Origin: a virus
Length of the DNA: 40,082 nt
Virus record (IMG/VR): IMGVR_UViG_3300009008_000092
Location: 1 to 40,082 of that record
Direction: 5' to 3' (one strand)
The notes beneath the pieces were generated by a model. That model did not search any database. It was given only the letters and a program-made list of their open reading frames with translations, and was not told where the DNA came from. The translations under genes were made by a program, and so were the position numbers. Positions 18,286 to 36,825 of the stretch are shown here, piece by piece; the stretch's first letter is position 1; each line of letters begins with the position of its first letter.

Positions 18286-21200
18286 GTGAAATTTGCACAT
18301 ATAAGTGATACTCATATTAAGAATCTAAAGTATCACTATGAATACCGGATTGTTTTCGACCAATTATATGATGAGTTACGAAAACAAGAGGTAGACTATA
18401 TTATTCATTGCGGAGATATCGCACACACAAAGACTCAGATTTCCCCTGAGTTTGTTGAGATGTGTTCTGATTTCTTTCGTAATCTGGCGGCCATTGCGCC
18501 GACATATATTATTCTAGGTAACCATGATGGCAACCTTAAGAACAGCAGTCGACAGGATGCGCTTACGCCTATTGTAGAAGCGCTCGATCTGCAAGATCTA
18601 CATTTACTGAAAGATTCCGGTGAAACTCATATTGATGATAAGTTTTGCCTTAATGTGCTTTCAGTTTTTGATAGAGCCAATTGGATTAAACCAACGGACG
18701 ACAGCAAAATTAACATTGCGTTGTACCACGGCTCTATCTCCAACTGTAAGACTGACACCAACTGGACAATGGCCCACGGGGAAGACAACATTGACATCTT
18801 TGGTGATTTTGATTTCTCTATGCTTGGTGATATTCACAGGCGCCAATTCTTAGATGAAACCGGCCGCGTTTGGTATGCTGGCTCTACGATTCAGCAAAAT
18901 CATGGCGAAACAAACGACAAGGGTATATTAATATGGGAGATCGAGGATAAAGATAATTGGGATATTGAACCAATCGTTTTTAAGAATCCTCGACCATTTA
19001 TAACCATAGTCTTGACACGAAAAGGCAGGATGCCCAAGGGCACGAAGGTACCTGAATCTGCCCGGCTTCGGTTAGTAAGCAACAACAATTTGCCTCTAAA
19101 CGTAATGAAGCGCGCAGTTGACATTGCAAAACACAGGTTTAAACCTGAGAGTATTTCGTTCTTAAATCGCGCATCAGGCGAACGCGGAAATGTAGAAGAA
19201 CTTACTAATTCCATTGAAGACGAAAATCTCCGCGACATTAATGTTCAAGAGCAGTTAATTAAGAAATATTTGACTGATTATGAAACCAGCGACGATATGC
19301 TGGAAAGAGTCTATGAACTAAACAGAAAATATAATAAGATTATTGAAGAGACTGAAGAGATATCAAGAAATATCAATTGGAAGTTGTCGAATTTTGAGTT
19401 TGATAACCTATTCAATTATGATGAAGGAAACAGTGTCAATTTTGAGCAACTAGGCGGAATTGTTGGGATTTTTGGTAAAAACTTCACCGGCAAGAGTAGC
19501 ATTGTTGATGCTGTGCTTTGGACTCTTTTCAATACAACTTCGAAAAATGAACGCAAAAATCTTAATGTTATCAATCAAAACAAAGATTCTTGTCGCGGCA
19601 AGCTGACAATTGCCGTGGGCAGCAAAACATATACCATTGAAAGAACTGCACAGAAGTATGTCAAGAGACTCAAGGGCGAAGAAACGCTGGAAGCCAAGAC
19701 TGATCTAAATTTTGAAGTTTATGACATATCCACGGATATAATCACGTCCCTTAATGGTTTAACGAGAAACCATACTGATGCGAACATCAGGAAACACTTT
19801 GGTACACTTGAAGACTTTTCGGTGTCATCCCTGGCCTCGCAGCACGGCGCCTTATCCTTCATCGATGAAGGCTCAACAAGACGTAAAGAGATCATCGCTA
19901 AGTTTTTAGATCTAGAAGTTTTTGATAAAAAGTTTAAGTTATCGAAAGAAGATTCTGTTGAAACAAAGGTTATTCTTAAAAAGCTTGAAGGACGCCCTTA
20001 CGACGAAGAGATTGTAGACATAATAAAGAAATTACAGGATTCAAGAAGCGCCGTTGATAACGCCGAAACACTGCACGTTTCTCTTAATAAATTACTCGAA
20101 AAATCAGAAGAATCTATGTCCGACATAATTAAATCAATTTCTGAAATTCCCACTGAGGCAATTGACATTTTTGATGTTAGGCGCGAGTTACAACAAAGCC
20201 AAAAACAGATCAATGTTTTATCTAATAAGGTTATAGAAGAGGCCAATTTATTAAAAAACGAGAAAGACAGACTAATAAAGATTAACAAGCTTCTAGGGCA
20301 GTTAGACTATGATTCACTTCTTACTCAGCAGAAAGAAATCCGCGAAGCCGAGGCTGAATTAGCTAGCCTAACTGTGGTTTTTGATAATGCCATGGCAAAG
20401 GAAAAGTTATTAGACGACATTCCTTGCGGCACACAATTTCAAACATGTAAATTTATTAAAGATGCACATGTCGCAGTCTCAACGTTGCCAGAAATAAAGA
20501 CTCAAATTCATGAATTTAAAGGCAAGCTATCCCACCTTTCTCCCGCTATTGTCAGAGACCATATTGAAAAGTATACAAAATTAAATGACAAGAAACAGGG
20601 AACAGAGGTATATATTAGAGATCTCAAGCTTTCTATTGAAAGAAACAATGGTGCCTTGGATAGACTTAACAATTCTGTATTTGAATTAAGAAATAAAGAA
20701 TTAATTTACGAAGGCAACAAAGAAACAATCGAGAATCTTGAGAAGTTATTAAAGGAAAAAACTGAATATGAAAATGGCATTGCCAAGTATAAAAGACAAA
20801 TTGAAGATAATAGAGAACAAACGCTTGATCTTTATAAACATGTTGGATCTTACGAACAACAACTTAAAGACATCAAAGAACAGCAAGCAGAATACATTGA
20901 ATTAAGAAAAGAATTCGCAGCCTACGACTTGTTTACGCGCTGCATGCACTCAAATGGTATTGCTTACGATATTATTAAGAAGAAGATTCCAGTCATTAAT
21001 GGCGAGATCGCAAAAGTTCTGGCCAATATTGTTGATTTTGAAGTTTTCTTTGAAACATCTGGTAATAAGTTTGATATTTTTATTAAACACCCACAGTACG
21101 ACGAGCGCCCAATTGAGATGGCTTCCGGAGCAGAAAAAACAATGAGCGCCATGGCAATTCGCTTGGCACTTTTGAGTGTTTCATCGCTACCTAAGTCTGA

Positions 21201-21404: not shown

Positions 21405-21809
21405 GTGAAAGTAACCAAGAGGCAGCTTAAGCAGATCATCAAAGAAGAGGCTGAAGAGGTTTTAAGCGAAGCCTATAGCGAGGAAAGATATGATCGTGGT
21501 AATTTAAGTAACCCCCTCGAAAACCCCGGGGTGTATTATTCACAATTGAAGGCAGACAGTGAAGATCCTAGCTCATATTATGGTGGTGAAGACAACCGAC
21601 CAGAAGGCGCCAAAGCTGTAAATCAGATTGCTCAGCTTATGCACAAGCTTAGCTGGGAGACCGGTCAAGCTAAGAAATTACCCCAATTAATAGATGATAC
21701 TAATAATCTAATACAGCAGGCAAAATCCATGGAAGGGCGCCCAAGGGAAGAAGCCGACGTCGCAGAACAGGTACTGGCCCAGTTTTTAAAAGATATGCCC
21801 CAATTTTAA
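21405..21809 (+). CDS. Small leader-tagged (class A) protein, function unknown
   Basis: 134 residues from GTG 21405, with TAGGAG upstream. It begins MKVTKRQLKQIIKEEAEEVL, the class A leader, with I-K-E at 12-14 and L-S-E at 20-22 as possible prohead-protease sites. The body is acidic; the second half (residues 65-130) is predicted helical. No enzyme motif is visible. It is the first full class A gene upstream of the tubulin-like gene and is 13 bp from it. If the leader is a capsid-targeting sequence, the mature product would be about 112-120 residues. Confidence 0.7.
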   Translation: MKVTKRQLKQIIKEEAEEVLSEAYSEERYDRGNLSNPLENPGVYYSQLKADSEDPSSYYGGEDNRPEGAKAVNQIAQLMHKLSWETGQAKKLPQLIDDTNNLIQQAKSMEGRPREEADVAEQVLAQFLKDMPQF

Positions 21810-21822
21810 CAAGGAATAAACA

Positions 21823-22965
21823 ATGTCAGACGAAAAAGAAGATAAAAACGAATTTGATTTTCTGCCTCCCGCAGAACCACCTCCCGCGTTCGCGCAGGAA
21901 AAAGACAGCTACCACGAATCAGTAGACGCTGAAGACTTCGGCATGGTAGAGGATTTCGGATTACAGATGGAATACTCTGATGAAGACTTACTCCCAGAAA
22001 ACACTGCGCCTTCTTCGATCAACGTGGGGTTTGTTGGTGTTGGGGGCGGAGGTAATAAAATGGCCAACGCTTTTATTGAGCTTGGTTTCAATAAAACACT
22101 GCTTGTTAACTCAACAGGCAAAGACATTCCAAAGAATGTAGAAGAGGATCACGTTGTCCTCATTCCCGATTCAGACGGGATTGGAAAAAACGTAGACTAC
22201 GGAAAAGAGGTTTTAAGTCAAAATGGTGCGATTGTTGAAGATGCCCTGCGTATCAAACTCGGTAAAGTTGATTGGCTATTCGTCCTTGCTGGCGGTGGTG
22301 GCGGTACCGGTAGTAGTGTTACCGCTCTGCACCCTGTCTTTGAGCGTTACATGCGCTCTGTGCAGTCGAGTGGCAAGGTCGTTTACATAGTCTCATGGCC
22401 GACAGCACAAGAAAACCTTAACCCCACAATCGCTCGTAATGCGTTGACGCTGGCAAATGATGTCACTCCGCATCCACATATCATTCTTGATAACGAGCGC
22501 TCTACACGCTTACTTCGAGGCAGAATCGGCATGCTTGGCATGTACCCTGTCGCCAACACACAATTTGCTAAGTCATTAGCTCAAGTTTTAAAACTCTCCA
22601 CTGAGGATTCACCGATCCAATCTTTCGATAGCAAGGATTTGGAAACATGCTTGGGCAATGACGGTCGTGCCTTCATGGGCTCAACCATGATAAAAGATCC
22701 AAATACTGGAAAGCTTGGATCGGTGATCCTTCACAACTGCATGAATCGTTCTGCATGTCCTCCACCCAAGGGTAAGGCCGCTGCAGGTTCGTTAGTGTTG
22801 GTTGTGTCAGAAGAGATGGTGGCTGATCCAAAGGTCAGTAAAAACATTGAGTCGGCAATCGCTTATGTCGGCGGTCGATGCGAGACACTGTTCTCTGGCG
22901 TTTACGTCAGAAAGAATGTGCCCGGTCTGATTGCGATACTAAGTATGAATGGATTAGCAACATGA
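21823..22965 (+). CDS. FtsZ/tubulin-like GTPase
   Basis: 380 residues. Residues 1-64 are an acidic, Pro-containing extension absent from FtsZ. The GTPase domain then begins INVGFVGVGGGGNKMANAF (67-84). The tubulin signature G-box is GGGGGTGSS at 157-165. The segment SFDSKDLETCLGNDGRAFMG (267-286) matches the FtsZ T7-loop region (N-x-D-F-x-D...MG) with both catalytic acids, D269 and D272, so it should polymerise and hydrolyse GTP. Known phage tubulins (PhuZ, c-st TubZ) position DNA or capsids; this one looks nearer FtsZ in the T7 loop. It might build a cytoskeletal track or interfere with host division. The last 24 bases encode SMNGLAT and are the apparent source of the intergenic repeats downstream. 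Confidence 0.85.
   Translation: MSDEKEDKNEFDFLPPAEPPPAFAQEKDSYHESVDAEDFGMVEDFGLQMEYSDEDLLPENTAPSSINVGFVGVGGGGNKMANAFIELGFNKTLLVNSTGKDIPKNVEEDHVVLIPDSDGIGKNVDYGKEVLSQNGAIVEDALRIKLGKVDWLFVLAGGGGGTGSSVTALHPVFERYMRSVQSSGKVVYIVSWPTAQENLNPTIARNALTLANDVTPHPHIILDNERSTRLLRGRIGMLGMYPVANTQFAKSLAQVLKLSTEDSPIQSFDSKDLETCLGNDGRAFMGSTMIKDPNTGKLGSVILHNCMNRSACPPPKGKAAAGSLVLVVSEEMVADPKVSKNIESAIAYVGGRCETLFSGVYVRKNVPGLIAILSMNGLAT
22936..22963 (+). repeat. 28-bp repeat, copy 1 (inside the tubulin-like gene's 3' end)
   Basis: Consensus: ATACTAAGYATGAATGG followed by ATTAGCAACAT. Here it is coding sequence (I-L-S-M-N-G-L-A-T then TGA) and overlaps the next start codon. Copies 2-6 lie between genes at 23193, 23621, 23943, 24289 and 24804. 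Confidence 0.85.
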
Positions 22966-23195
22966 AGATTACAAAACAACAACTTAAACAGATTATCAAA
23001 GAAGAATTAACCGAGGTAGGTCAATATGGATTAGGTGTGCCGGGAGGTTCCACAAGATCCGTAGCAGATCCACACACCGCCGCAATAGAAGCTCTTGCAG
23101 ATTATATACGCAACAGATACGGAGAAGATCAAAAGCTTTTAGAACTTTTACAAACTGCTGAAGAAGCGGTTATTGACTTTGAGAACGAACTATAA
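22962..23195 (+). CDS. Small leader-tagged (class A) protein, function unknown
   Basis: 77 residues from ATG 22962, overlapping the tubulin-like stop (ATGA). A longer in-frame frame opens at 22878 inside the tubulin-like gene, but the leader MKITKQQLKQIIKEELTEVG fixes this start. I-K-E at 12-14 is a possible cleavage site. The mature part has a short Gly-rich segment (YGLGVPGGSTRS) and an acidic helix (LLELLQTAEEAVIDFENEL). The first 45 bases differ by a single base from those of the gene at 23661, so the leader is conserved at DNA level. Function unknown. Confidence 0.72.
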   Translation: MKITKQQLKQIIKEELTEVGQYGLGVPGGSTRSVADPHTAAIEALADYIRNRYGEDQKLLELLQTAEEAVIDFENEL

Positions 23196-23216
23196 GCATG
23201 AATGGATTAGCAACAT
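23193..23216 (+). repeat. 28-bp repeat, copy 2 (intergenic, partial 5' end)
   Basis: TAAGCATGAATGG followed by ATTAGCAACAT. The first bases of the repeat have diverged, but it supplies the TAA stop of the preceding gene. It contains the mini-frame ATG...TAA (23198-23218) for MNGLAT. Confidence 0.85.
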
Positions 23217-23231
23217 AAAAGGAATAATATA

Positions 23232-23627
23232 ATGGCTATAAGAAAAAACAAGAAGTTCATCGATCCTCGCTACTTTATGGACGAGAAGACAGAGATTGTC
23301 AAGGAAGAGCTTAGAGACTATTACGATGGAGAATCGCACTCTCAATCAGAGCGTGATGCTACGCAGCCTCGCCGTCCCGAAGAGCTTGACTCTATTAAGA
23401 GCCCAGAGCGCGCTGACGATCAACAATCATATGAAATGGCCATGGGTGCTTCCCGCGACACAATTATGAGTGTATTTGGAGAAGAGGGCGAACTGGTCTG
23501 GAACCTTATCGAGACCGCACTTCATGCGCAGCCCGGTAGTTTTGAAACTGTGATGCCACTACACCAAGAGATTGAAGATTTGGCACGGATCGATAGCGAA
23601 GTCAGAAGTGATATGAAAGAATACTAA
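23232..23627 (+). CDS. Small leader-tagged (class B) protein, function unknown
   Basis: 131 residues, with AAAAGGAATAATATA upstream of ATG 23232. It begins MAIRKNKKFIDPRYFMDEKT, the class B leader also seen at 24332 (RKNKKRIDPRYFLHETT), followed by V-K-E at 23-25. The middle is charged and probably disordered (SQSERDATQPRRPEE). The C-terminal half is helical (GASRDTIMSVFGEEGELVWN). The leader and the upstream bases are shared with 24332 almost base for base. Its stop codon is inside the next copy of the 28-bp repeat. No known domain. Confidence 0.7.
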   Translation: MAIRKNKKFIDPRYFMDEKTEIVKEELRDYYDGESHSQSERDATQPRRPEELDSIKSPERADDQQSYEMAMGASRDTIMSVFGEEGELVWNLIETALHAQPGSFETVMPLHQEIEDLARIDSEVRSDMKEY

Positions 23628-23648
23628 GCATGAATGGATTAGCAACAT
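23621..23648 (+). repeat. 28-bp repeat, copy 3 (intergenic)
   Basis: A full copy: ATACTAAGCATGAATGG then ATTAGCAACAT. It supplies the stop codon of the upstream gene and encodes MNGLAT from 23630, ending in TAG at 23648-23650. It is followed by AGGAG for the gene at 23661. Confidence 0.9.
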
Positions 23649-23660
23649 AGGAGTTCCAAA

Positions 23661-23936
23661 ATGAAAATTACAAAACAACAACTTAAACAGATTATCAAAG
23701 AAGAAATCGAAAAAGTTATAGAAAACGTGCCCAACCCAGAGCTTCGCGACCGTGCTCAAACTGGACATTCAGATTCTCATGCATCAGATTCGGAAAAGTG
23801 TCGCAGAATTCAAGCGGAATATAACAAACACAAAGAAGAAAATCCTACGAGCTATGGCTATGAAGGCGATATGTTTGAAAATTGGGTCGAAAGAATGAAG
23901 AGAGAACATCCCGGCTGCTTGCCAGAGGATGCATAA
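23661..23936 (+). CDS. Small leader-tagged (class A) protein, function unknown
   Basis: 91 residues, AGGAG nine bases upstream. It begins MKITKQQLKQIIKEEIEKVI, identical in the first 15 residues to the gene at 22962. I-K-E at 12-14 is a possible cleavage site. The body is hydrophilic and His/Glu-rich (DRAQTGHSDSHASDSEKCRR), with a C-terminal part (YGYEGDMFENWVERMKREHP) that looks like a small folded helical unit. No family recognised. It is followed by a full 28-bp repeat and the class C gene at 23969. Confidence 0.7.
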   Translation: MKITKQQLKQIIKEEIEKVIENVPNPELRDRAQTGHSDSHASDSEKCRRIQAEYNKHKEENPTSYGYEGDMFENWVERMKREHPGCLPEDA

Positions 23937-23942
23937 GAAAGT

Positions 23943-23970
23943 ATACTAAGCATGAATGGATTAGCAACAT
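23943..23970 (+). repeat. 28-bp repeat, copy 4 (intergenic)
   Basis: A full copy, starting six bases after the upstream stop codon. It encodes MNGLAT from 23952, and its TGA overlaps the ATG of the next gene (ATGA at 23969-23972), exactly as at the end of the tubulin-like gene. Confidence 0.9.
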
Positions 23971-24295
23971 GAAACAACTATTTGAAAATTGGCGAAAGCA
24001 TATAAACGAATACGAAGATGAATTCCGAGAGCATGAATATATTCACGGCGATCTCGCGAAATTAGTGGGAGGTTTCGGAATACAAGAATTTGAAAAGGTA
24101 TTTCTGGGTCACGATGACGACAAAAAAAGAGCCAATATACAATTAACTGGGGATGTACTTTCTTACAACAGTCCAGATGGCAAATATATTGAATTGCCAG
24201 CAGGCAATGACGATGATGCATTTCTTGCTGCAATTAATCGGTGGGATGATTACCTCCGCGCCAAAGTAGACAAAACAATTAGAGACAAATACTAA
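23969..24295 (+). CDS. Small leader-tagged (class C) protein, function unknown
   Basis: 108 residues from ATG 23969. A longer frame from 23882 overlaps the preceding gene and reads through the repeat, so it is rejected. It begins MKQLFENWRKHINEYEDEF. The W-R-x-H-I-x-E pattern is like MESWRGFLSEE at 35383 and recalls the N-terminus of T4 internal proteins (M-K-T-Y-Q-E-F-I-x-E). I-N-E at 12-14 is a good gp21-type site. The body has a beta-like stretch (ANIQLTGDVLSYNSPDGKYI) and an acidic C-terminal helix. Function unknown. Confidence 0.7.
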   Translation: MKQLFENWRKHINEYEDEFREHEYIHGDLAKLVGGFGIQEFEKVFLGHDDDKKRANIQLTGDVLSYNSPDGKYIELPAGNDDDAFLAAINRWDDYLRAKVDKTIRDKY

Positions 24296-24316
24296 GAGTG
24301 AATGGATTAGCAACTT
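24289..24316 (+). repeat. 28-bp repeat, copy 5 (intergenic)
   Basis: ATACTAAGAGTGAATGG then ATTAGCAACTT, with three differences from the consensus. The mini-frame starts with GTG (24298) instead of ATG and still reads V/M-N-G-L-A-T-stop. It supplies the TAA of the upstream gene. Confidence 0.85.
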
Positions 24317-24331
24317 AAAAGGAATAATATA

Positions 24332-24793
24332 ATGGCTAGACGTAAAAACAAGAAAAGAATCGACCCTCGGTATTTTTTACACGAGACGACATATAGAGAC
24401 GAGATTGAAGAAACTCAGCAATCTGTTTTAAACGAAGGTGTGAGCCTTCATGACGCTTTAGTCCAATCGGCCAACACGGCACAGGGCAGCGACGGATTCA
24501 CCAAATACCCGGTGATAAAAATTTCAAATAATCAATATATCCAACTGAGCCAATTTATTCAATACGCCGGTAAGCGGCCGGTAATCAAGGGTTATCATGT
24601 AGACTTTAGCACTGGGGCCCCCTCGGACGGATGGCTGCGACAAACTGGACGAATAGGTGAGGGCAAAGATATTAAAACTGCCCTAACATCGGCTCTTGAG
24701 TATATTCAGAAAGCTGCACAGCAAGGAAAGGGCCCATACGGAACAGACCCCATTGATGTGGATAGCACTGAACCTGGCGCCACATCAGCGTGA
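24332..24793 (+). CDS. Small leader-tagged (class B) protein, function unknown
   Basis: 153 residues, with the same AAAAGGAATAATATA leader as 23232. It begins MARRKNKKRIDPRYFLHETT. L-N-E|G at 33-36 is an excellent match to the T4 gp21 cleavage consensus. After it comes a compact domain (residues 36-140) with alternating beta and alpha character, including NQYIQLSQFIQYAGKRPVI and KGYHVDFSTGAPSDGWLRQT. I do not recognise it. The predicted mature protein would be about 118 residues. Confidence 0.7.
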   Translation: MARRKNKKRIDPRYFLHETTYRDEIEETQQSVLNEGVSLHDALVQSANTAQGSDGFTKYPVIKISNNQYIQLSQFIQYAGKRPVIKGYHVDFSTGAPSDGWLRQTGRIGEGKDIKTALTSALEYIQKAAQQGKGPYGTDPIDVDSTEPGATSA

Positions 24794-24803
24794 AAGTTAT
24801 CGA

Positions 24804-24822
24804 CTGAAGGGATTAACAACAT
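24804..24822 (+). repeat. 28-bp repeat, copy 6 (degenerate)
   Basis: CTGAAGGGATTAACAACAT matches the last 19 bases of the repeat at 16 positions. The mini-frame has lost its ATG. It overlaps the start of the gene at 24821 as copies 1 and 4 do. Confidence 0.65.
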
Positions 24823-24961
24823 GAAGATTACAAAACAACAACTTAAACAGATCGTCAAAGAAGAGCTTAGTGACTATTTATCAAATATATACAAGTGGTG
24901 CCCAGCAGGAACCAAATGTGAGCCAGAGAAGAAAAAGACAAAATGGTGGAAAGGAAAATGA
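24821..24961 (+). CDS. 46-residue leader-tagged (class A) Cys/Trp/Lys peptide
   Basis: A short frame from ATG 24821 to TGA 24959-24961. It begins MKITKQQLKQIVKEELSDYL and ends in a compact basic tail with W26, C27, C33, W42, W43 and many Lys (WCPAGTKCEPEKKK, KWWKGK). Cleavage after V-K-E (12-14) would leave about 32 residues with one possible disulfide, like a small toxin or antimicrobial-type peptide; this is only a resemblance in composition. The leader DNA matches its neighbours, and the frame overlaps the next gene by ATGA, so it is very likely a real gene. Confidence 0.7.
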   Translation: MKITKQQLKQIVKEELSDYLSNIYKWCPAGTKCEPEKKKTKWWKGK

Positions 24962-25242
24962 AAATCACAAAAGATCAACTTAAGCAGATCATCGAGCAAG
25001 AAATCGACGCTGAGATCGGCGAAGGTCTTGTCGATAAAGTGAAGAGCACTTTCGGCCTCTCTAAACCTGCAACCATAGATTATAAAGAAATAAGCGATGC
25101 TTTTGACGAAATCCCCCGACTTCCGATGTATGCCAAAGCCCTTCTTGACCAGAGTTTGCCGGAGCCCCAGCGTAAAGAACTGGCGTTCGACGCAATAAAA
25201 AAAATTGATTATATTAAAACTGCATTGGAGCAATTAAAATGA
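24958..25242 (+). CDS. Small leader-tagged (class A) protein, function unknown
   Basis: 94 residues from ATG 24958, overlapping the previous stop (ATGA). An upstream in-frame start at 24943 would only add MVERK. It begins MKITKDQLKQIIEQEIDAEI; I-I-E at 11-13 is a possible cleavage site. The remainder is helical and acidic (GLVDKVKSTFGLSKPATIDY onward). Its own stop overlaps the next ATG in the same way, so three class A genes in a row are translationally coupled. Confidence 0.72.
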   Translation: MKITKDQLKQIIEQEIDAEIGEGLVDKVKSTFGLSKPATIDYKEISDAFDEIPRLPMYAKALLDQSLPEPQRKELAFDAIKKIDYIKTALEQLK

Positions 25243-25832
25243 AAATTACAAAATCACAACTTAAACAAATTATTAAAGAAGAAGTAGAATCAGATGAGGC
25301 GCTTCTTGATGCGTTGCACAAGCTGACAGCAAAAATCGACGATTTAGATGTTAGTGTCGATTATTTGGCCTCTGCTGTGACCGGCGAAGACGCTCACTCA
25401 ATCGGTTCCGCACAACGTGGCCTAGGCCGCTTCTCCAAGCCGATGATGAAAGTGCAGCAGAAAGGCTCCGACTTAGAAGAAGCTGAAGAACCAGCCGCCG
25501 AACATGCTGGGAGAGCCCTCGATACCGCCTTAACTAAATATGCCCTCAAAGCGAAGAAGATGATCAAAGACGACGAAGCTGGACGAAATCAGATAGTGGA
25601 TAGCCTTTGGAACACGATGATGGCTTCGCTAAGCAAGGCAATGCCCGGGTCGTGGAACCACGCAAATCAAAGAACCGCGATTAAAAACTTGCTCAAGACG
25701 CTTACTCCTGCCGATGATGCTCCCGAAGATGAGTATCAAGGGTTCCAAACAAGCTCCGGTCCGGATGACGATCCCACTGAAGAACCCACCCGCGATTATT
25801 TTGGAGACGAACACGCAGCCCGCGGGTTTTAA
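25239..25832 (+). CDS. Leader-tagged (class A) helical protein, function unknown
   Basis: 197 residues from ATG 25239 (ATGA overlap with the previous gene). It begins MKITKSQLKQIIKEEVESDE, with I-K-E at 12-14. Residues 20-60 form an amphipathic helix, residues 85-160 are Ala- and Lys-rich helical sequence, and the C-terminus is acidic and disordered, with Asp and Pro (SSGPDDDPTEEPTRDYFGDE). It is the longest of the class A array. No catalytic motif is visible. Confidence 0.72.
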   Translation: MKITKSQLKQIIKEEVESDEALLDALHKLTAKIDDLDVSVDYLASAVTGEDAHSIGSAQRGLGRFSKPMMKVQQKGSDLEEAEEPAAEHAGRALDTALTKYALKAKKMIKDDEAGRNQIVDSLWNTMMASLSKAMPGSWNHANQRTAIKNLLKTLTPADDAPEDEYQGFQTSSGPDDDPTEEPTRDYFGDEHAARGF

Positions 25833-27348: not shown

Positions 27349-27730
27349 AAATTACGATCAAATCGCTGCAATAGAAAAAGCAATCTCTGAAAAGTATGGG
27401 GAAGAAGCCGTTGTCAACCCAAAAGCAAATTGGGACGAGAACAAAGAAAAAGAATATCTCCAACAAATGAAAGAACTGTATGAAAAAACAAGGACATCAG
27501 AAGAATCACAAGAGAAAATAGATGTAAATGGCATTAAAGTATCAAAAAAACTACTTAATAGAGAACCAATGCAATCTTGCTCAGTTTGCGGGATTTTTCC
27601 CAAAAAATCTATGGACAATGTTTGCATGGTAAAATTTGAATGTTGCGAGAAATGTTACTTCAAACACGTACAGCAGCGGGAAGACAGATGGCTAAAAGGA
27701 TGGCGCCCAAATGAAAATAACAAAAAATGA
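27341..27730 (+). CDS. Small zinc-finger protein, function unknown
   Basis: 129 residues, overlapping the previous gene by 8 bp. The first 70 residues are charged and helical. The C-terminal third contains CSVCGIFP and FECCEKCYFKH, giving a CxxC...CCxxC arrangement that should bind one zinc. It ends in a basic, Trp-rich tail (REDRWLKGWRPNENNKK). This could bind nucleic acid or be a structural zinc ribbon. Its last 20 bases overlap the start of the next, leader-tagged gene. Confidence 0.65.
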   Translation: MSKNYDQIAAIEKAISEKYGEEAVVNPKANWDENKEKEYLQQMKELYEKTRTSEESQEKIDVNGIKVSKKLLNREPMQSCSVCGIFPKKSMDNVCMVKFECCEKCYFKHVQQREDRWLKGWRPNENNKK

Positions 27731-28349
27731 TATAAGAGAGGCAATTTTGGAGGCTCTGACTGAGGATCCGAATGCCCCGGCCGGGGCGGATCCCGAAACC
27801 GGGCCCGAAGATGGCGACATAAATTCGGCCGAACGCAGTCTTGCCGTACAGATATATAAGTGGTTCTTGGGTCTTGCCGCCGAGCCGAATATTGATTTAA
27901 ATACGTTGCGCAATCCGGTTCAAATAAAATTGAATCAGTTGGCAAAACAAATAAAATCCGCTCAAGCCGGCCAAGTCGATCTCAAAAAAGATAGAAGTCG
28001 GTTCTCCACCGGAATGGCGACGACGGCCGTTAGAGATATCACAAAAAACCCCGGCAAGAACCCCCAGGCCGACAGACAAGCCGAAAGCTGCGGCGATCAC
28101 ATGGTAGCACAAGAGCCTGAGATAGACCAAGATACGCATATGCACCACGACCAGGGAGATCCGGGAGAATCGGAGTTGGCCAAGTCACAATTGTATCGCG
28201 CTTCGCAATATGCCGGAGAGCTAGAACAAATGATTCATGATGGTGAAGAACTTGATGCATGGGTACAGGCAAAAATTACGAAAGCCTCCGATTACCTTTC
28301 CTCGGTCAAACACTATTTACAGTACAAGAAGACGAAAGGAGATCACTAA
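27711..28349 (+). CDS. Leader-tagged (divergent class A) protein, function unknown
   Basis: 212 residues. It begins MKITKNDIREAILEALTEDP, a class A leader in which the second half has diverged. I-L-E (12-14) and L-T-E (16-18) are possible cleavage sites. An acidic, Pro-rich stretch (PNAPAGADPETGPEDGD) follows. A helical domain with a predicted structural core (AVQIYKWFLGLAAEPNIDLN) spans about 40-80. The C-terminal half is His/Glu/Asp-rich (DQDTHMHHDQGDPGESE) and ends in a long helix. No known family. It is between the zinc-finger gene and a conserved packaging-region gene. Confidence 0.68.
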   Translation: MKITKNDIREAILEALTEDPNAPAGADPETGPEDGDINSAERSLAVQIYKWFLGLAAEPNIDLNTLRNPVQIKLNQLAKQIKSAQAGQVDLKKDRSRFSTGMATTAVRDITKNPGKNPQADRQAESCGDHMVAQEPEIDQDTHMHHDQGDPGESELAKSQLYRASQYAGELEQMIHDGEELDAWVQAKITKASDYLSSVKHYLQYKKTKGDH

Positions 28350-28905: not shown

Positions 28906-29385
28906 ATGGAGCTTTCTCGCAATGATATCTATAGAATTATTATAGAAGAGTACATTAAAGAAGAAGGTCTCTTAGAAACCCAAGCCGCCGAAGATCTCTT
29001 AAGGCGGATCATGGGCGATAAAAAATACTGCGAACAGTATCCCGAAAGGTGCAAACCCCCCGAATCCGGCCGTGGTGGCGATACAAAGTCAATGCCAATT
29101 TCCAGGAGAAAGCCTCCTCCTTTATCGAGCCTAGAAACCATGCCCATCCCAGTGGCAGGCGCCATCGAGTCGCAAATTGTAAATCTTTTGAGCGATATTT
29201 CACCAGAGGAAGCCATGGAGATTATTAACAATATCGTTGTGCAAAACTACCCTCAATATATGCAAGCAGACCCAGACGAAGAAGGTCCCGACCCCGATCG
29301 CCCAGTTATACTCTCCCCCGGAGATCCCCGCAGGAAGGCGATTAAAGAAATGATTCTTAAGATTCTGAGTGAGTATGGCGTTTAA
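28906..29385 (+). CDS. Leader-tagged (divergent class A) protein before terminase
   Basis: 159 residues. It begins MELSRNDIYRIIIEEYIKEE, which keeps the pattern of the class A leader (N-D-I-x-R-x-I-I-x-E-E) with I-I-E (12-14) and L-L-E as possible cleavage sites. A short Cys pair (YCEQYPERC) and a disordered Pro-rich linker follow, then an acidic helical part (SDISPEEAMEIINNIVVQNY). It ends in a basic helix (RRKAIKEMILKILSEYGV) and overlaps the terminase start. In many phages the small terminase precedes the large one; this protein shows no obvious DNA-binding motif, so I do not call it that. Confidence 0.65.
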   Translation: MELSRNDIYRIIIEEYIKEEGLLETQAAEDLLRRIMGDKKYCEQYPERCKPPESGRGGDTKSMPISRRKPPPLSSLETMPIPVAGAIESQIVNLLSDISPEEAMEIINNIVVQNYPQYMQADPDEEGPDPDRPVILSPGDPRRKAIKEMILKILSEYGV

Positions 29386-30958
29386 ACTTTCCAAGAAACA
29401 AATATTAAAAGAAGTAGTTAAGTGCGGAAAAGATCCATCGTACTTTCTTAAAACGTATGCCCGTATATCTCACCCGATGCACGGGCTAATCCTTTTTAAT
29501 ACATTTGATTACCAAGATCAGTTGCTAGAAGATTTTAATGACTATCGGTTCAATGTCATAAACAAAGGACGCCAGCTTGGCATCTCTACATTGACCGCTG
29601 GCTATATTGTGTGGATGATGTTGTTTCACCGTGACAAGTCGATTCTTGTTATGGCTACAAAGTTTGAAACTGCCGGAAACCTTGTCAGAAAGGTCAAAAG
29701 CATCATGAAGAACCTACCAGATTGGATCCGTATTGCCTCCATCACCACTGACAATAGAACGTCTTTTGAATTATCCAACGGTTCTACAATTAAGGCAGCG
29801 TCCACATCTGGCGATGCGGGTCGCTCAGAAGCGCTGTCACTATTGGTTCTTGATGAGGCAGCACATATCGACGGACTCGAAGATTTGTGGACGGGTTTGT
29901 ATCCAACTCTGTCAACTGGTGGTCGATGCATCGCTATTTCTACTCCTAATGGCGTCGGAAACTGGTTTCATAAAACTTGCATCGGCGCCGAGACCAAAGA
30001 AAATAATTTTAAATTAACAACATTAATGTGGGACGTGCATCCCGAACGCGACGAAGAGTGGTTTAAAAAAGAAACTAGAAACATGTCTCGACGCCAAATA
30101 GCCCAAGAGCTACAGTGTAATTTCAACACTTCCGGCGAAACAGTCATTGATCCTGATGCACTCGAATGGATAGATTCAAATACTACAGAGCCAAAATATA
30201 GGACAGCTTTTGATAGAAATTTTTGGATTTGGGAAGAGTTTGATCCATCGTGTAATTATCTCTTAACAGCAGACGTTGCAAGAGGCGACGGCGCAGATTA
30301 TTCTACATTTCACATTATTAAATTAGAAACACTGCAAGTTGTGGGGGAGTATCAAGGAAAGCCCGCTCCTGACTTATACGCAAACATGCTAAATCAAATC
30401 GGCCGAGAGTTCGGCGATGCCATGGTTGTCATCGAGAATAACAGCATTGGTTATACAGTTTTAGACAAACTAGTTGACTATGGTTATCCAAATATTTATT
30501 ATTCTGTTAAGTCAACGCACGAATATATAGAACAACATATGGCAGAACATCGAACATCAGCAGTTGCAGGATTTACAACATCTTCTAAGACTCGACCTTT
30601 GGTCGTGGCTAAATTAGAAGAGTTTATAAGAAACAAACTAATTACTACATATTCATCCCGTTTAGCCAATGAATTGAGAACATTTATTTGGACAAACGGA
30701 AAACCACAAGCTCTAAAAGGATACAACGATGATTTAGTTATGGCACTCGCGATTGCTTGCTGGGTTAGAGATACCGCTTTGCAAACAAATCAAAGAGATT
30801 TAAACTACAAGAAAGCTTTTGTTGATGCTATAATAACATCTCGTACTACATTTGATACAACAGTTCAAGGACAGACCGGATACAAACGTGACAGCGCTTT
30901 AGACAAGATGTCGGACGCAGAAAGCTTGTACGATCAATATAAGTGGATTATAAAGTGA
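29375..30958 (+). CDS. terL: Terminase large subunit (gp17-like)
   Basis: 527 residues from ATG 29375; a GTG at 29369 would add two residues. N-terminal ATPase: an adapted Walker A, NKGRQLGIST (63-72), Walker B LLVLDEAAH with D160/E161, and the coupling motif STPNGVGNWF (189-198). C-terminal RNase H-like nuclease: TADVARGDGADYS with D300, VVIENNSIG with E354, and YNDDLVMALA with D452/D453. The R-Q-L-G-x-S/T form and length match T4 gp17-type terminases, which drive headful DNA packaging through the portal. The portal gene follows directly, as expected. No separate small terminase is evident. Confidence 0.96.
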   Translation: MAFKLSKKQILKEVVKCGKDPSYFLKTYARISHPMHGLILFNTFDYQDQLLEDFNDYRFNVINKGRQLGISTLTAGYIVWMMLFHRDKSILVMATKFETAGNLVRKVKSIMKNLPDWIRIASITTDNRTSFELSNGSTIKAASTSGDAGRSEALSLLVLDEAAHIDGLEDLWTGLYPTLSTGGRCIAISTPNGVGNWFHKTCIGAETKENNFKLTTLMWDVHPERDEEWFKKETRNMSRRQIAQELQCNFNTSGETVIDPDALEWIDSNTTEPKYRTAFDRNFWIWEEFDPSCNYLLTADVARGDGADYSTFHIIKLETLQVVGEYQGKPAPDLYANMLNQIGREFGDAMVVIENNSIGYTVLDKLVDYGYPNIYYSVKSTHEYIEQHMAEHRTSAVAGFTTSSKTRPLVVAKLEEFIRNKLITTYSSRLANELRTFIWTNGKPQALKGYNDDLVMALAIACWVRDTALQTNQRDLNYKKAFVDAIITSRTTFDTTVQGQTGYKRDSALDKMSDAESLYDQYKWIIK

Positions 30959-30966
30959 GAAAATAA

Positions 30967-32967
30967 ATGGCACCCAAAAACCCGAAACAAGGAAATAACC
31001 CAGCTAACAAACAATCATCATTGTTTAAGTCTTTGACTAGACTTTTTTCTGGTCCGATTGTAAATTACCGTTCTCAATCCGGACGTAGGATTCGACGACA
31101 ACATCTAGATAAGTTTTCCTCCAGATTTAAATCAGCCTCGGGTCAGCAATTCAAAAAGCAAACCTATAACCCCTTAGATACTATTGCTGCAAATGCTATC
31201 GGCAACCAGCAAAGAAGCGAGCGGTATATTGACTTTGATCAGATGGAATATATGCCTGAGATTGCATCGTCGTTGGATATTTACGCTGACGAAATGACAA
31301 CTTTCTCAGCCCTCCGCCCCATGCTTAACATTAAGTGCTCTAATGAGGAGATAAAAGCAGTACTTGAAACACTATACCATAATGTGTTGAATCTTGAATA
31401 TAACTTATTTGGCTGGTGTCGCACTTTATGCAAGTACGGCGATTTTATGCTCTATCTTGACATTGACGAGAAGCTGGGTATTCAGTCAACAATAGCGATC
31501 CCGCTACAAGAGATCGAACGCCTCGAAGGCTTGGACGCGACAAATCCAAACTATGTCCAATATCAATGGAACTCGGCGGGAATGACATTTGAAAATTGGC
31601 AGGTTGCCCATTTTCGAATTCTTGGGAATGATAAGTATTCCCCCTATGGAACTTCCGTTCTGGAACCAGCACGCAGAATTTGGAGACAACTGACACTTGC
31701 CGAAGACGCGATGATGGCATATAGAGTTGTGCGCTCTTCTGAACGCCGCGTGTTTAAGATCGATGTCGGCGCCATTCCTCCACAAGATGTTGAGCAATAT
31801 ATGCAAAAAATCGTAACTCAACTTAAACGACACTCAATTGTCAACAAAGATACAGGCCGCGTTGATTTAAGATATAACCCTTTGTCTATCGAAGAGGACT
31901 ACTACATTCCCGTTCGCGCTGGCTCGGCAACCGACATCGTTAACTTAGCCGGCGGCACGAACACCACAGAAATTGATGATATTAAGTATTTGCGCGACAA
32001 GCTCTTTTCCGCGTTAAAAATTCCTCAGTCTTACTTATCAATGGGCGAAGGCGCGCAGGAAGACAAGACAACCTTGGCACAGAAAGATATTCGTTTTGCG
32101 CGCACTGTCCAAAGACTACAGAGAACAGTAATCCACGAACTTGAAAAGGTTGGCATTATCCACCTTTATACTCTTGGCTTCCGTGGCGATGACTTGATTA
32201 ACTTCAAGCTTGCCCTTAATAATCCTTCAAAGATTGCCGAGCTTCAAGAGCTTGAACACTGGAAGAACAAGTTCGATATTGCCGGCTCAGCAACAGAAGG
32301 CTACTTCTCTCGTCGCTGGGTTTCGGAACACATATTCAATCTTTCTCACGAAGACTTTGCCAGATGCCAGCGCGAGATGTATTATGATCGTAAGCAGGAT
32401 GCTGCTCTACAAGCTGTGGCAGAAGCACAAGCCGCAGCCGGCGGTGGCTTAGGCGGCGGTTTGGGCGGTGACTTAGGCGGTGATCTAGGAGGCGATTTGG
32501 GCGGCGACATGGCCGGAGGCGAAGGCGGCCTTGATCTAGGTCCCGAGGGAGCAGGTGGGGATCCCGGCGCGCCCGGCGGCGAAGAGCCTGCTGGCGAAGA
32601 ATCATCATTATTGACCGCACCCCCTGGCACCAGAAACGCCCCGAGACTCACTCCGGGCTCCAGAGGAAAAGTTTATTATCCACAGCGCACTGATTCAAGA
32701 CCAGCCGGCGCCAGATCACGGCACTTTTCTCACATCGGAACACCAGAAATGAATACGATGAGAACCAATAATTTGGGATATCCCGAATTAAGATCTCTTG
32801 GGCGCGGCATTACTGAAGGTGTTTATGGAGATGATGACCCTATTTACTCATTGAGAGAACAGAAAGAAGAAATTAAAATGTTGGAGATCAACAAATCGAT
32901 AACAAATCTCTTAGAGGTTCTGGAACAGAAAAAAGAGGAGCCAACAGAGCAAAAAGATGAAAGCTAA
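30967..32967 (+). CDS. Portal protein (gp20-like)
   Basis: 666 residues, longer than T4 gp20 (about 524). The core is typical of T4-type portals: DFDQMEYMPEIASSLDIYAD near 90, EPARRIWRQLTLAEDAMMAY near 237, RRVFKIDVGAIPP, and LRDKLFSALKIPQSYLSMGE near 340-360. A ring of twelve forms the DNA channel and docks the terminase. The extra length is at the C-terminus: a Gly-rich run with L-G-G-D units (about 490-525), a Pro/Gly stretch, and a charged helix to the end. The gene overlaps the following one by 11 bp. Confidence 0.93.
   Translation: MAPKNPKQGNNPANKQSSLFKSLTRLFSGPIVNYRSQSGRRIRRQHLDKFSSRFKSASGQQFKKQTYNPLDTIAANAIGNQQRSERYIDFDQMEYMPEIASSLDIYADEMTTFSALRPMLNIKCSNEEIKAVLETLYHNVLNLEYNLFGWCRTLCKYGDFMLYLDIDEKLGIQSTIAIPLQEIERLEGLDATNPNYVQYQWNSAGMTFENWQVAHFRILGNDKYSPYGTSVLEPARRIWRQLTLAEDAMMAYRVVRSSERRVFKIDVGAIPPQDVEQYMQKIVTQLKRHSIVNKDTGRVDLRYNPLSIEEDYYIPVRAGSATDIVNLAGGTNTTEIDDIKYLRDKLFSALKIPQSYLSMGEGAQEDKTTLAQKDIRFARTVQRLQRTVIHELEKVGIIHLYTLGFRGDDLINFKLALNNPSKIAELQELEHWKNKFDIAGSATEGYFSRRWVSEHIFNLSHEDFARCQREMYYDRKQDAALQAVAEAQAAAGGGLGGGLGGDLGGDLGGDLGGDMAGGEGGLDLGPEGAGGDPGAPGGEEPAGEESSLLTAPPGTRNAPRLTPGSRGKVYYPQRTDSRPAGARSRHFSHIGTPEMNTMRTNNLGYPELRSLGRGITEGVYGDDDPIYSLREQKEEIKMLEINKSITNLLEVLEQKKEEPTEQKDES
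32446..32530 (+). repeat. Short tandem repeat coding L-G-G-D units in the portal gene
   Basis: Imperfect 12-base units (GGCGGTGACTTA and variants) encode GGGLGGGLGGDLGGDLGGD and on to MAGGEGG. Such runs change length easily by slippage. Confidence 0.75.
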
Positions 32968-34745: not shown

Positions 34746-35366
34746 GTGGGCAAGAAGCTACTCAGAGAATATTACGAACTTTGCGAAGGCGGTATTTGCC
34801 AGGATCTGTTAACAGAAGCAGAAAAGAAGTTTGTTTCTGAAGGAGGCATGATCTTGTCTGGTCTTATGCAAATGTGTGAAGTAGAGAACGGCAACAAACG
34901 TGTTTATACCGAAAGTGTTTTAAAGCGAGAAGTCCAAAAGTATAAGACCCTAGTTGAACAGGGCCGCGCCCTCGGAGAACTTGACCACCCAGAGAAAGTA
35001 GAGGTTTCGCTACAAGCCGTAGCACATAAGGTTACTGCTATTTGGATGGAAGGCAAAAAGGTCATGGGCAAAATCCAAGTGCTCGAAACGCCCGCTGGCA
35101 AGACCCTCCGCGCCTTAGTTGAAGGCGGGTGTGCTATTGGCATTTCATCCCGCGGCACAGGCTCGGTTCAAGAACAAAATGGAAGATCGATTGTTCAGGA
35201 AGATTTTGAATTAGTATGCTTTGATATTGTTTCAGAGCCATCAACCCCCGGGGCATTTATGGTACGCGAAGCCAAGGATTTGGGTGATGTTAGTTATAAT
35301 AAAAAAGAGCGTATTCAAGAATTATTAAACGAGGTATTGAAAGATGAGCAATTGGTCAAGCTATAA
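34746..35366 (+). CDS. Prohead maturation protease (gp21-like)
   Basis: 206 residues from GTG 34746, close to T4 gp21 (212). Catalytic motifs: ELDHP with H81, GISSRG with S134/S135, and CFDIVSEPSTPGA with D160, the His-Ser-Asp set of herpesvirus-fold phage proteases. The segment DLLTEAEKK near the N-terminus has L-T-E|A at 22-25, a plausible self-cleavage site. In T4, gp21 sits in the core, digests the scaffold and removes N-terminal targeting peptides after (L/I)-x-E. This is the enzyme that could process the leader-tagged proteins of this window. It overlaps the next gene by 23 bp. Confidence 0.93.
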   Translation: MGKKLLREYYELCEGGICQDLLTEAEKKFVSEGGMILSGLMQMCEVENGNKRVYTESVLKREVQKYKTLVEQGRALGELDHPEKVEVSLQAVAHKVTAIWMEGKKVMGKIQVLETPAGKTLRALVEGGCAIGISSRGTGSVQEQNGRSIVQEDFELVCFDIVSEPSTPGAFMVREAKDLGDVSYNKKERIQELLNEVLKDEQLVKL

Positions 35367-36153
35367 AAATGACAAAATAATCATGGAATCTTGGAGAGGC
35401 TTCTTAAGTGAAGAAGTTGAGTCCAATGAAAAATTAACTGAACAAGAGTTGGAAGAACTTTTTGGAAAAGCGAATTGGGAAAAACTAGTCGATGTCTGGG
35501 CTCAAACCGACGCAGAGAACACAGAAGCCGCCACTAAGGCCGGCCTCCAGGCCATGACTACAGATGATAAAGGAAACCCCGTCTCACCCCAACAAATTGT
35601 CCGCAATGCTCAAGCAATCATTGCGGCCGCGGCAGAAACGAAGGATCCTGAAGCCGTTCAAATCGCCACCAATGTTATCAAGACTGCTGATGAGAAGGCG
35701 CCTGAGTTAAATCTTGATCAAGCCGTAACTTCGGTTGATGTTGAAGAAGTGCCAGACGAAGAAACCACCGCACCAACGGCCGGCCTGGAAATCGATCGAT
35801 CTATGTTAATGAAAATTGTTAAAAATCCTGAAGCTAGGGTTGGGCCCACGATGGTCTTTAGAACAAGATTGACTAAGTATCTCCAATCAGTTGGCCTACC
35901 ACGCTCTATCAATAGGATGTCGCCGGTGGTACAGGGTATTGTTGACGTCATTCGTCAGGCCGCCATGGCTGCCAATTCTTCGCTCGGCTCAACCAATTTG
36001 CCGGCAATGGGCGGCGATGCCGGCTCATCATCACTATCTGCAAACTTGGAAGAGAAGATTGAGAAGATCTTTGTACCGATCATCCTTGAGGAAGTGAAGC
36101 GCGAAAAGGTACGCAGAATTTTAGTCGAGATCGGAAAAGCGGTGATCAAGTGA
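35344..36153 (+). CDS. Probable prohead scaffold/core protein with class C leader
   Basis: 269 residues from ATG 35344, which has GAGG nine bases upstream. A second in-frame ATG at 35383 would give MESWRGFLSEEVESNEKLTE, the class C leader, directly at the N-terminus, but has no good ribosome site. L-S-E is a gp21-type site. The body is Ala-, Glu- and Asp-rich, acidic and helical, with a middle disordered part (EEVPDEETTAPTAG) and a C-terminal helix that is strongly charged (KIFVPIILEEVKREKVRRIL). The position directly after the protease is that of scaffold gp22 in T4. I infer scaffold or core function; sequence identity to gp22 is not visible. Confidence 0.65.
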   Translation: MSNWSSYKNDKIIMESWRGFLSEEVESNEKLTEQELEELFGKANWEKLVDVWAQTDAENTEAATKAGLQAMTTDDKGNPVSPQQIVRNAQAIIAAAAETKDPEAVQIATNVIKTADEKAPELNLDQAVTSVDVEEVPDEETTAPTAGLEIDRSMLMKIVKNPEARVGPTMVFRTRLTKYLQSVGLPRSINRMSPVVQGIVDVIRQAAMAANSSLGSTNLPAMGGDAGSSSLSANLEEKIEKIFVPIILEEVKREKVRRILVEIGKAVIK

Positions 36154-36584
36154 AGAAATCGGATCTAAAGCGAGCTATAAAGCCTTTAGTAAAAGAGTGC
36201 ATTCATGAAGTATTAATAGAAGAAGGCTTGCTATCGAGTGTTGTCGCAGAGGTTGCAAAAGGCCTCAGTGCGTCCCCAATAGTCGAAAAACGCACGCAGA
36301 CAAAGCCGAAACCGCCCCCCCAAGATGACCGCGAAATGCAACGAAGAAACGAAGACATTAAAAGAAAAATGCAAGATCATCGCAAGAAACTTTTAGAAGC
36401 TGTCAGTCAAGATGCCTATAATGGCGTAGATTTGTTTGAGGGAACATCCCCAATGTCCAGCTATGAGTCCTCTACACCGAGCCAAGGGGCCCCCGATCTT
36501 GGTGACCCGAAGAACGCCGGCGTTGATATCAGTTCTCTGACAAGCAATGCCTCACAGATTTGGAAGGAAATGAGCAGGAAATAA
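36150..36584 (+). CDS. Leader-tagged (divergent class A) core/internal protein candidate
   Basis: 144 residues from GTG 36150, overlapping the previous stop (GTGA). It begins MKKSDLKRAIKPLVKECIHE and continues VLIEEGLLSS, a class A-like amphipathic leader with I-H-E and L-I-E sites. The centre is Pro/Lys- then Arg/Glu-rich (RTQTKPKPPPQDDREMQRRN), probably disordered and helical. The C-terminus is Ser-rich. A leader of this class in the core-protein position supports the idea that the leaders direct proteins into the prohead. No family recognised. Confidence 0.68.
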   Translation: MKKSDLKRAIKPLVKECIHEVLIEEGLLSSVVAEVAKGLSASPIVEKRTQTKPKPPPQDDREMQRRNEDIKRKMQDHRKKLLEAVSQDAYNGVDLFEGTSPMSSYESSTPSQGAPDLGDPKNAGVDISSLTSNASQIWKEMSRK

Positions 36585-36585
36585 T

Positions 36586-36825
36586 ATGGCTTCTAATGTA
36601 GTTGTTAAGTCTAGAGAATGCCGCGGCAATCATGAGCGAATGATCAGAAGATTTATTAAGAAATGTAAAAAAGAAAGAATTGTTGAAGAGTATAGAGACA
36701 AGCAACGGCATAAAAAACCTTCTGAAGCGAAGCGCGAAAAACGCGCAAGATCTGCGAGAGAGAGAAAAAGACAGGAACTTAAGAAAAAAAGACTGTTAGA
36801 AAAACGTAGTAGAAGAAAAAATTAG
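36586..36825 (+). CDS. rpsU: Phage-encoded ribosomal protein bS21
   Basis: 79 residues, very basic. The pattern fits bS21: VVVKSRECRGNHERMIRRF, then KKCKKERIVEEYRDKQRHKK, PSEAKREKRARSARERKR, close in layout to the bacterial protein (V-K-x-x-E-x...A-L-R-R-F-K-R-x-C-E-K...E-x-R-x-R...Y-E-K-P-S...R-K-R). bS21 sits near the anti-Shine-Dalgarno end of 16S rRNA and aids initiation. Phage bS21 genes are known from marine viruses and are thought to bias host ribosomes to viral mRNA. Here it lies in the head gene cluster, one base after the previous gene, so it is probably made late. A generic basic coiled protein is the alternative. Confidence 0.82.
   Translation: MASNVVVKSRECRGNHERMIRRFIKKCKKERIVEEYRDKQRHKKPSEAKREKRARSARERKRQELKKKRLLEKRSRRKN

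Follow-up and report, generated by a model that had tools for sequence, protein, structure and literature searches.

Probable cleavable capsid-targeting leaders on a hypervariable gene array of T4-like phages

Introduction

A small protein encoded in a T4-like phage record of IMG/VR starts with a 14-residue leader, MKQLFENWRKHINE, which a first-pass annotation had likened to the capsid-targeting signal (CTS) of the T4 internal proteins. Is this leader an address for the phage head, and would it be removed there? In T4, the prohead protease gp21 cuts after L/I-X-E, and in the CTS of the internal protein IPIII the aromatic residues 4 and 7 serve targeting while I8 and E10 serve processing (PMC9026906). 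The T4 CTS (Mullaney and Black 1996, as reviewed in PMC9026906) has already been proposed as a possible means for T4-like phages to load diverse proteins (PMC9026906), and other proteins with CTS-like starts are found in T2 and T6 (ref. 69 of PMC9026906). Here we analyze the 40-kb record (the window, that is, the whole stretch of 40,082 nucleotides) together with its relatives. From sequence comparison we propose, with a probability of roughly 0.78, that the leaders of this kind, termed class C, are cleavable capsid-targeting propeptides on a hypervariable arsenal of internal proteins and work like the T4 CTS.

Results

Head module and gene array

The window contains a T4-type head module (Table 1). 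Its portal protein is 38% identical to that of Flavobacterium phage vB_FspM_immuto, the best cultured match, and its protease is 45% identical to that of immuto, which is the closest cultured relative by these two proteins. Two MAG contigs with this protease, one of them (L149) with the same gene order in detail, are found in Flavobacteriaceae bins. The host is probably a member of the Flavobacteriaceae, and only probably because MAG binning can be wrong. The protease is present in 18 of 21 related records searched and gp23 in 12 of 20; many of these records, including several of those without a match, are fragments, and the window itself ends short of the expected gp23 position. The gp23 of the clade has a conserved LxE site, ELLRE followed by S, Q, A or T (LLRE), near residue 60, and the propeptide removed from T4 gp23 is 65 residues long (PMC5694885). 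The protease of the clade has a conserved LxE site, LLTE, near its N-terminus. This S77 protease is the enzyme predicted to cut the leaders. A phage-encoded ribosomal protein S21 (window 36586-36825, PF01165 above cut-off) adjoins the head module and stands in the same place in Microcystis phage Mel-JY01. The conserved protein at 36150 has no relative in Mel-JY01 and only a weak match in immuto.

Table 1. Features of the window that bear on the leaders (a slash marks the end of a leader).
Feature	Position	Strand	Remarks
Class A leader protein	21405..21809	+	MKVTKRQLKQIIKEEAEEVLSE/A; upstream of array
Tubulin/FtsZ-like protein	21823..22965	+	PF00091 E=2.8e-7, just below cut-off
Class A leader protein	22962..23195	+	MKITKQQLKQIIKE/E
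Class B leader protein	23232..23627	+	MAIRKNKKFIDPRYFMDEKTEIVKE/E
Class A leader protein	23661..23936	+	
ATGGATTAGCAAC copy	23956..23968	+	directly 5' of class C ATG
Class C leader, 14 codons	23969..24010	+	MKQLFENWRKHINE; leader shared by 31 distinct bodies of related phages
Body of class C array protein (predicted mature part)	24011..24295	+	acidic, pI 4.7; no fold assigned; full-length relative in L012
Class B leader protein	24332..24793	+	MARRKNKKRIDPRYFLHE...DEIEE/
Class A leader protein, 46 aa	24821..24961	+	
Class A leader protein	24958..25242	+	
Class A leader protein	25239..25832	+	
Class A-type leader protein	27711..28349	+	
Class A-type leader protein	28906..29385	+	adjoining terminase gene
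Terminase large subunit, T4-type	29375..30958	+	PF03237
Portal protein, T4-type gp20	30967..32967	+	PF07230 252 bits
Prohead protease, gp21/S77 family	34746..35366	+	PF03420 102.7 bits (cut-off 27); phrog_207 head maturation protease E=2.5e-55
Leader of second class C-type protein, corrected start	35344..35412	+	MSNWSSYKNDKIIMESWRGFLSE/; core KIIMESWRGFLSE at 35374-35412
Body of second class C-type protein	35413..36153	+	
Conserved protein	36150..36584	+	MKKSDLKRAIKPLVKECIHEVLIE/E; comes after protease module in relatives

The products of the small-gene array (22962-25832) start with three kinds of leader, A (for example MKITKQQLKQIIKE/E), B (for example MARRKNKKRIDPRYFLHE...) and C. The class C copy lies within this array, as the first-pass annotation had it, and its leader corresponds exactly to codons 1-14, the last residue being the E of I-N-E. 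The open reading frame of 108 aa starts with MKQLFENWRKHINEYEDEF and ends at 24295, and the body behind the leader opens with YEDEF. A cut by the prohead protease is predicted after E14 (codon 24008-24010). The relative in L012 (at 1305) is 68% identical in the best segment. In relatives, the tubulin/FtsZ-like gene forms the upstream border of the hypervariable array; its product has at least 172 relatives in IMG/VR, and the only match in cultured phages is a weak one, to Bacillus phage G. Five copies of the 13-mer ATGGATTAGCAAC are found in the window (22949, 23202, 23634, 23956 and 24302). The tubulin-like gene ends with the copy at 22949, which encodes MNGLAT and the stop, and the other four precede array genes. 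Relatives have up to five copies per locus, ahead of many A, B and C genes. A recurrent family of small proteins inside the arrays (L035, L037, L045, L059, L081 and others) has MNW[IL]K[ST]LW..LV.KTS and, behind it, an acidic stretch.

Conservation of the leader ends at [LI]xE

An IMG/VR search with the 23969 protein gave 15 loci, all but one of which match only residues 1-18 or fewer on otherwise unrelated proteins. Since this query was partly seeded with MKQLFENW, a second, leader-independent set of 80 loci was gathered via the neighbouring tubulin-like gene. In the 65 arrays bounded on both sides there are 195 distinct genes, among them 66 of class A, 27 of class C and 24 of class B; over all loci, the distinct proteins number 287 A, 57 C and 40 B. 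The 57 class C proteins form 31 clusters of unrelated bodies, cluster counts being approximate because single-linkage clustering fuses one very large group.

Conservation was measured with one representative per body cluster. The class C consensus in related marine contigs is M[KN][KQ]LFENW[RN]K[HYF][LI]xE, 14 residues long, and conservation is kept through L/I12 and E14, with 3.07 bits at E14, 0.83 at residue 15 and then 0.46. The alignment script fixed columns 1-3, and the pattern used to select the proteins included the LFENW core, so that the argument for a break rests on columns 9-14 versus 15 onward. The [LI]xE motif is found at 12-14 in 26 of 31 representatives, and E14 is absent in four. 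Class A is conserved through E14-E15, with a weaker [LIM]xE at 20-22, the place where this motif is most frequent, and fading thereafter, and class B fades past E26. The 5' half of class C is also conserved at the nucleotide level (CTA TTT GAA AAT TGG, with TTT GAA in 57/57), and recent recombination therefore explains part of its conservation. In class A, synonymous codon changes are seen at each position, and it is thus the peptide that is kept. In relatives of about 190 kb, class C genes form one more cluster, in which as many as four with MKLLLENWRKYLNE/ or a close variant of it follow each other, all on one strand. The class C-type leaders of this cluster are written in partly different codons; a reversed-pattern control in these relatives gave no match. 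Searches of cultured phages with 20-aa leaders, which are insensitive at such length, gave nothing useful.

The motif WRx[FH][IL]xE, which had been noticed in the leaders at 23969 and 35383, is indeed encoded at both places. Of 1,383 non-redundant related-phage proteins, 22 have it among their first 26 residues, and it is found only once elsewhere in these proteins (about 318,000 residues; internal 24-mer rate about 1e-4). It is therefore a real N-terminal feature, beyond chance. In a helical-moment check the class C leader is amphipathic, at the 99th percentile of shuffles. The same check gave no support for the immuto leader, and amphipathicity is thus no common rule. Found on unrelated bodies, with conservation that ends at [LI]xE and in phages with a gp21-type protease, the leader is supported as a module by these comparisons.

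Leaders are swapped between homologous bodies

Fourteen strict body clusters have more than one leader class, that is, homologous bodies with different leaders in different phages. The class A protein MRITRTELKKLIVEEIQAALNE/EANPSALDPEVFPQKL (L035:1020) corresponds to the class C protein MKKLFENWNKFVNE/EANPAAVDPEVFPQKL (L051:1236), with ALNE/EANP... in the former and FVNE/EANP... in the latter and 81% identity over 273 aa. Another A-to-C pair is ...ATLDE/RAVPHSAQ (L059:10437) and ...KHLKE/EAVPHSAH (L090:2647), and an A-to-B pair is ...LDE/VFGLFGDS (L028:7719) and ...LDE/VLGLFGDS (L083:8516). The window takes part as well: the body stretch EELRDYY..ESHSQS of its 23232 protein (class B) is found behind a class A leader in L034, L028 and L078. 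An aligned [LIVM]xE lies within -3 to +5 of the start of body homology in 13 of 18 non-redundant swap pairs versus 5.6% of control windows, where some of the 18 pairs depend on one another and alignments tend to begin at places where leader ends look alike.

A second class C-type protein in the head module

The sequence MESWRGFLSEE (leader MESWRGFLSE) is encoded at 35383, which had been taken as the start of a scaffold-position protein. Both parts of that assignment had to be revised. The protein most likely starts at 35344, because the N-terminus from there (MSNWSSYKNDKIIMESWRGFLSE/E) is conserved in three relatives, L009 (MSNWSSYKKDKLIMESWRGFVNEE), L010 (MSDWSSYKNDKIIMESWRGFLNEE) and L011 (MSKKWSSYEKDGKIMESWRNYVEG), and a Shine-Dalgarno-like GAGG lies 9 nt upstream of the 35344 ATG, with none near 35383. 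The exact 10-residue length match to MKTYQEFIAE thus falls with the wrong start. As to the scaffold, a gp22-like coiled-coil ORF is found in relatives directly upstream of gp23, about 10 kb away. The slot between the protease and the 36150 protein is variable in body and length in the relatives examined (L115-L132), or empty (L117, L121, L122 and L130). We therefore rejected a gp22 scaffold identity, and the 35344 protein is better read as cargo. Several slot genes have class C-like leaders (MSNDFSSFKAEQKTMDAWRKFLTE/, MKNEEFKIINERWDRYLKE/ and MKYENYALIQENWNKFAVE/).

Comparison with the T4 internal proteins

The T4 internal proteins had been said to start with M-K-T-Y-Q-E-F-[IL]-x-E. This is true of IPII and IPIII (MKTYQEFIAE) but not of IPI (MKTFKEFTSTTTPVSTITE). 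Residues 4, 7, 8 and 10 of the IPIII CTS map onto W8, H/Y/F11, L/I12 and E14 of class C, a fit seen in 24 of 31 class C representatives. Near the N-terminus, the corresponding pattern [FWY]xx[FWYH][LI]xE is found in only three of 264 T4 proteins, namely IPII, IPIII and 61.1, where about one is expected by chance; IPII and IPIII have one common leader, and IPI and Alt do not fit. The [LI]xE motif alone is common, being present in 16% of internal T4 20-mers. A class C profile ranked IPII and IPIII 20-21, Alt 202 and IPI 240 in the T4 proteome (264 proteins), and blind profiles of class C and class A did not place the T4 internal proteins at the top. After this failed test, direct homology with the T4 leaders is unproven and is not claimed. 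The bodies also differ in net charge: 94% of class C bodies are acidic, with a median of -6.5 per 100 aa, versus +2.6 to +5.6 per 100 aa for T4 IPI-III. In view of the profile result, the roughly one pattern match expected by chance and the acidic versus basic bodies, our claim is that the leader works like a CTS, not that the protein is a T4 internal protein. What is supported is the module with its [LI]xE stop in phages that have a gp21-type protease, together with the match at the four T4 positions. Class C had also been regarded as the most direct link to capsid targeting; it is not the sole one, as the cut motif is also found at the end of class A and class B leaders.

T4 gene 61.1 (L134, T4 18966-19130) starts with MKTFKEFIKE/D, a good capsid-targeting leader, and its product is possibly an unrecognised T4 internal protein.

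Bodies behind the leaders

Nearly all bodies are without a functional match in Pfam and PHROGs annotation. A resemblance to takeover enzymes is seen in some class C bodies. Among the bodies of the class C cluster in relatives of about 190 kb, there is a protein-kinase match (PF00069 E=9e-7, just below cut-off; PF07714 above cut-off) and a match to the polynucleotide-kinase family (HAD-type) with FDFDDT. The product of L166:1589-2602 (minus strand, 338 aa) combines a class C leader with a protein-kinase domain match. L026 encodes a protein of 786 aa that starts with a class C leader; it has no domain or solved-structure match, and its homologues in long relatives have N-termini without the leader. 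Another class C protein (L040:7349) has the body repeats QHFDTASGAPLTDKGREMCAKNPECKAKHM. A RiPP-type leader peptide was considered and rejected: body length varies between about 30 and several hundred residues, and the last residues of the leaders are xxE, not double glycine.

Discussion

Modular leaders, a sharp [LIVM]xE break and leader swaps are observed in phages that also encode the protease and a gp23-type capsid protein. From these we infer targeting, cleavage, packaging and injection as follows. During head assembly, the amphipathic leader would bind the prohead core and bring the body into the prohead. The S77 (gp21-type) protease would cut after [LI]-x-E, as the motif and its co-occurrence with the enzyme suggest, and the freed body would, by analogy with T4, stay with the packaged DNA and be injected at the next infection. 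Class C would be one of at least three leader families with a common cut motif, exchanged from body to body within a hypervariable cargo array, which may be kept changing by selection for new bodies and by recombination at the leaders and ATGGATTAGCAAC. It is a tentative extension, with the odds somewhat against it, that this amounts to modular delivery, in which interchangeable capsid-address leaders, possibly for different addresses or timings, recombine with fast-changing injected effector bodies in cassette arrays.

The leaders could target the prohead and be cut there on proteins that are no cargo but factors of the head core or of assembly, which are cut into pieces and expelled as T4 gp22 and gp67 are. 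Many bodies are acidic, some have further [LI]xE sites and some leader genes lie within the head module, as such factors might; however, the bodies are hypervariable and dispensable between relatives, unlike core proteins, and some resemble enzymes, which makes this quite unlikely. It appears quite improbable that the leader is mainly a recombination handle, with cassettes that duplicate and swap via the 5' sequence (ATGGATTAGCAAC plus leader codons) and a leader conserved by gene conversion with no targeting role. The shuffled bodies, the same 13-mer ahead of genes of all three classes and the nucleotide-level conservation of class C would agree with a handle. But a handle does not need to stop at a glutamate, and three unrelated leader families have the same terminal [LIVM]xE; moreover, the synonymous variation at all class A positions and the partly different codons of the second-cluster leaders argue against it.

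Uncleaved docking to another structure, such as a membrane or the filament of the tubulin-like protein encoded next to the array, is very improbable. An amphipathic class C leader and an array directly behind the tubulin-like gene would suit a docking tag, yet class C leaders are also found far from this gene, in the head module and the second cluster, and the conserved terminal [LIVM]xE fits a protease and is a motif for which a docking tag has no need. We thus favor cleavable capsid-targeting propeptides.

This reading has known parallels. The T4 CTS of IPI, IPII, IPIII and Alt is likewise a short N-terminal leader with hydrophobic or aromatic residues at -6 and -3 and a terminal [LI]xE, in a phage with a gp21-family protease and with divergent bodies behind similar leaders. 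Class C differs in its 14 residues, its almost invariant LFENW core and the lack of homology detectable by profile, and the clade differs in its several leader classes, tens of bodies, leader swaps and acidic bodies. The T-even phages also have variable internal proteins behind a common CTS, whereas the clade shows this at a larger scale, with three leader families that exchange bodies and two or more cassette clusters in each genome. The ejected head proteins of phiKZ and SPN3US also start with propeptides, which a gp21 relative cuts after x-x-E, and they include paralogues with an identical N-terminus, but several of these propeptides exceed 100 residues, the phiKZ sites are S/A-x-E and the phages are distant (PMC5694885, PMC9026906). 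Immuto, with its T4-like head module, has the leader M(E)NF[DN]L[KR][KS]FL[VT]EN[KR]LT.N..L on four proteins with different bodies, ending in or near [LI]xE, although the LFENW-type leader was not found in it. MKKSQLR[QE]II is common to two of its proteins, and several leader families of its own (L140-L148) have ends in or near [LI]xE.

No MKITK leaders and no earlier description of leader families with body exchange were found in the literature searched, which mostly left subscription journals outside its coverage, and no virion proteomics was found for this clade. While CTS-style loading by T-even phages has been described, what is new is that there are several leader families, the scale on which they occur, the way they change from body to body, and the clade itself.

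If our reading is true, CTS-style packaging as studied in T4 has been rebuilt in these phages into a system of cassettes that are shuffled behind several families of leaders. A readable N-terminal tag would then predict virion cargo among many uncharacterised marine phage proteins, and new tags would be available to load proteins into phage heads. With its four-protein leader family, immuto makes the idea testable in culture. Anonymous hypervariable ORFs, including the kinase-like and HAD-like ones, would become a list of candidates for host takeover and anti-defence that can be put to the test.
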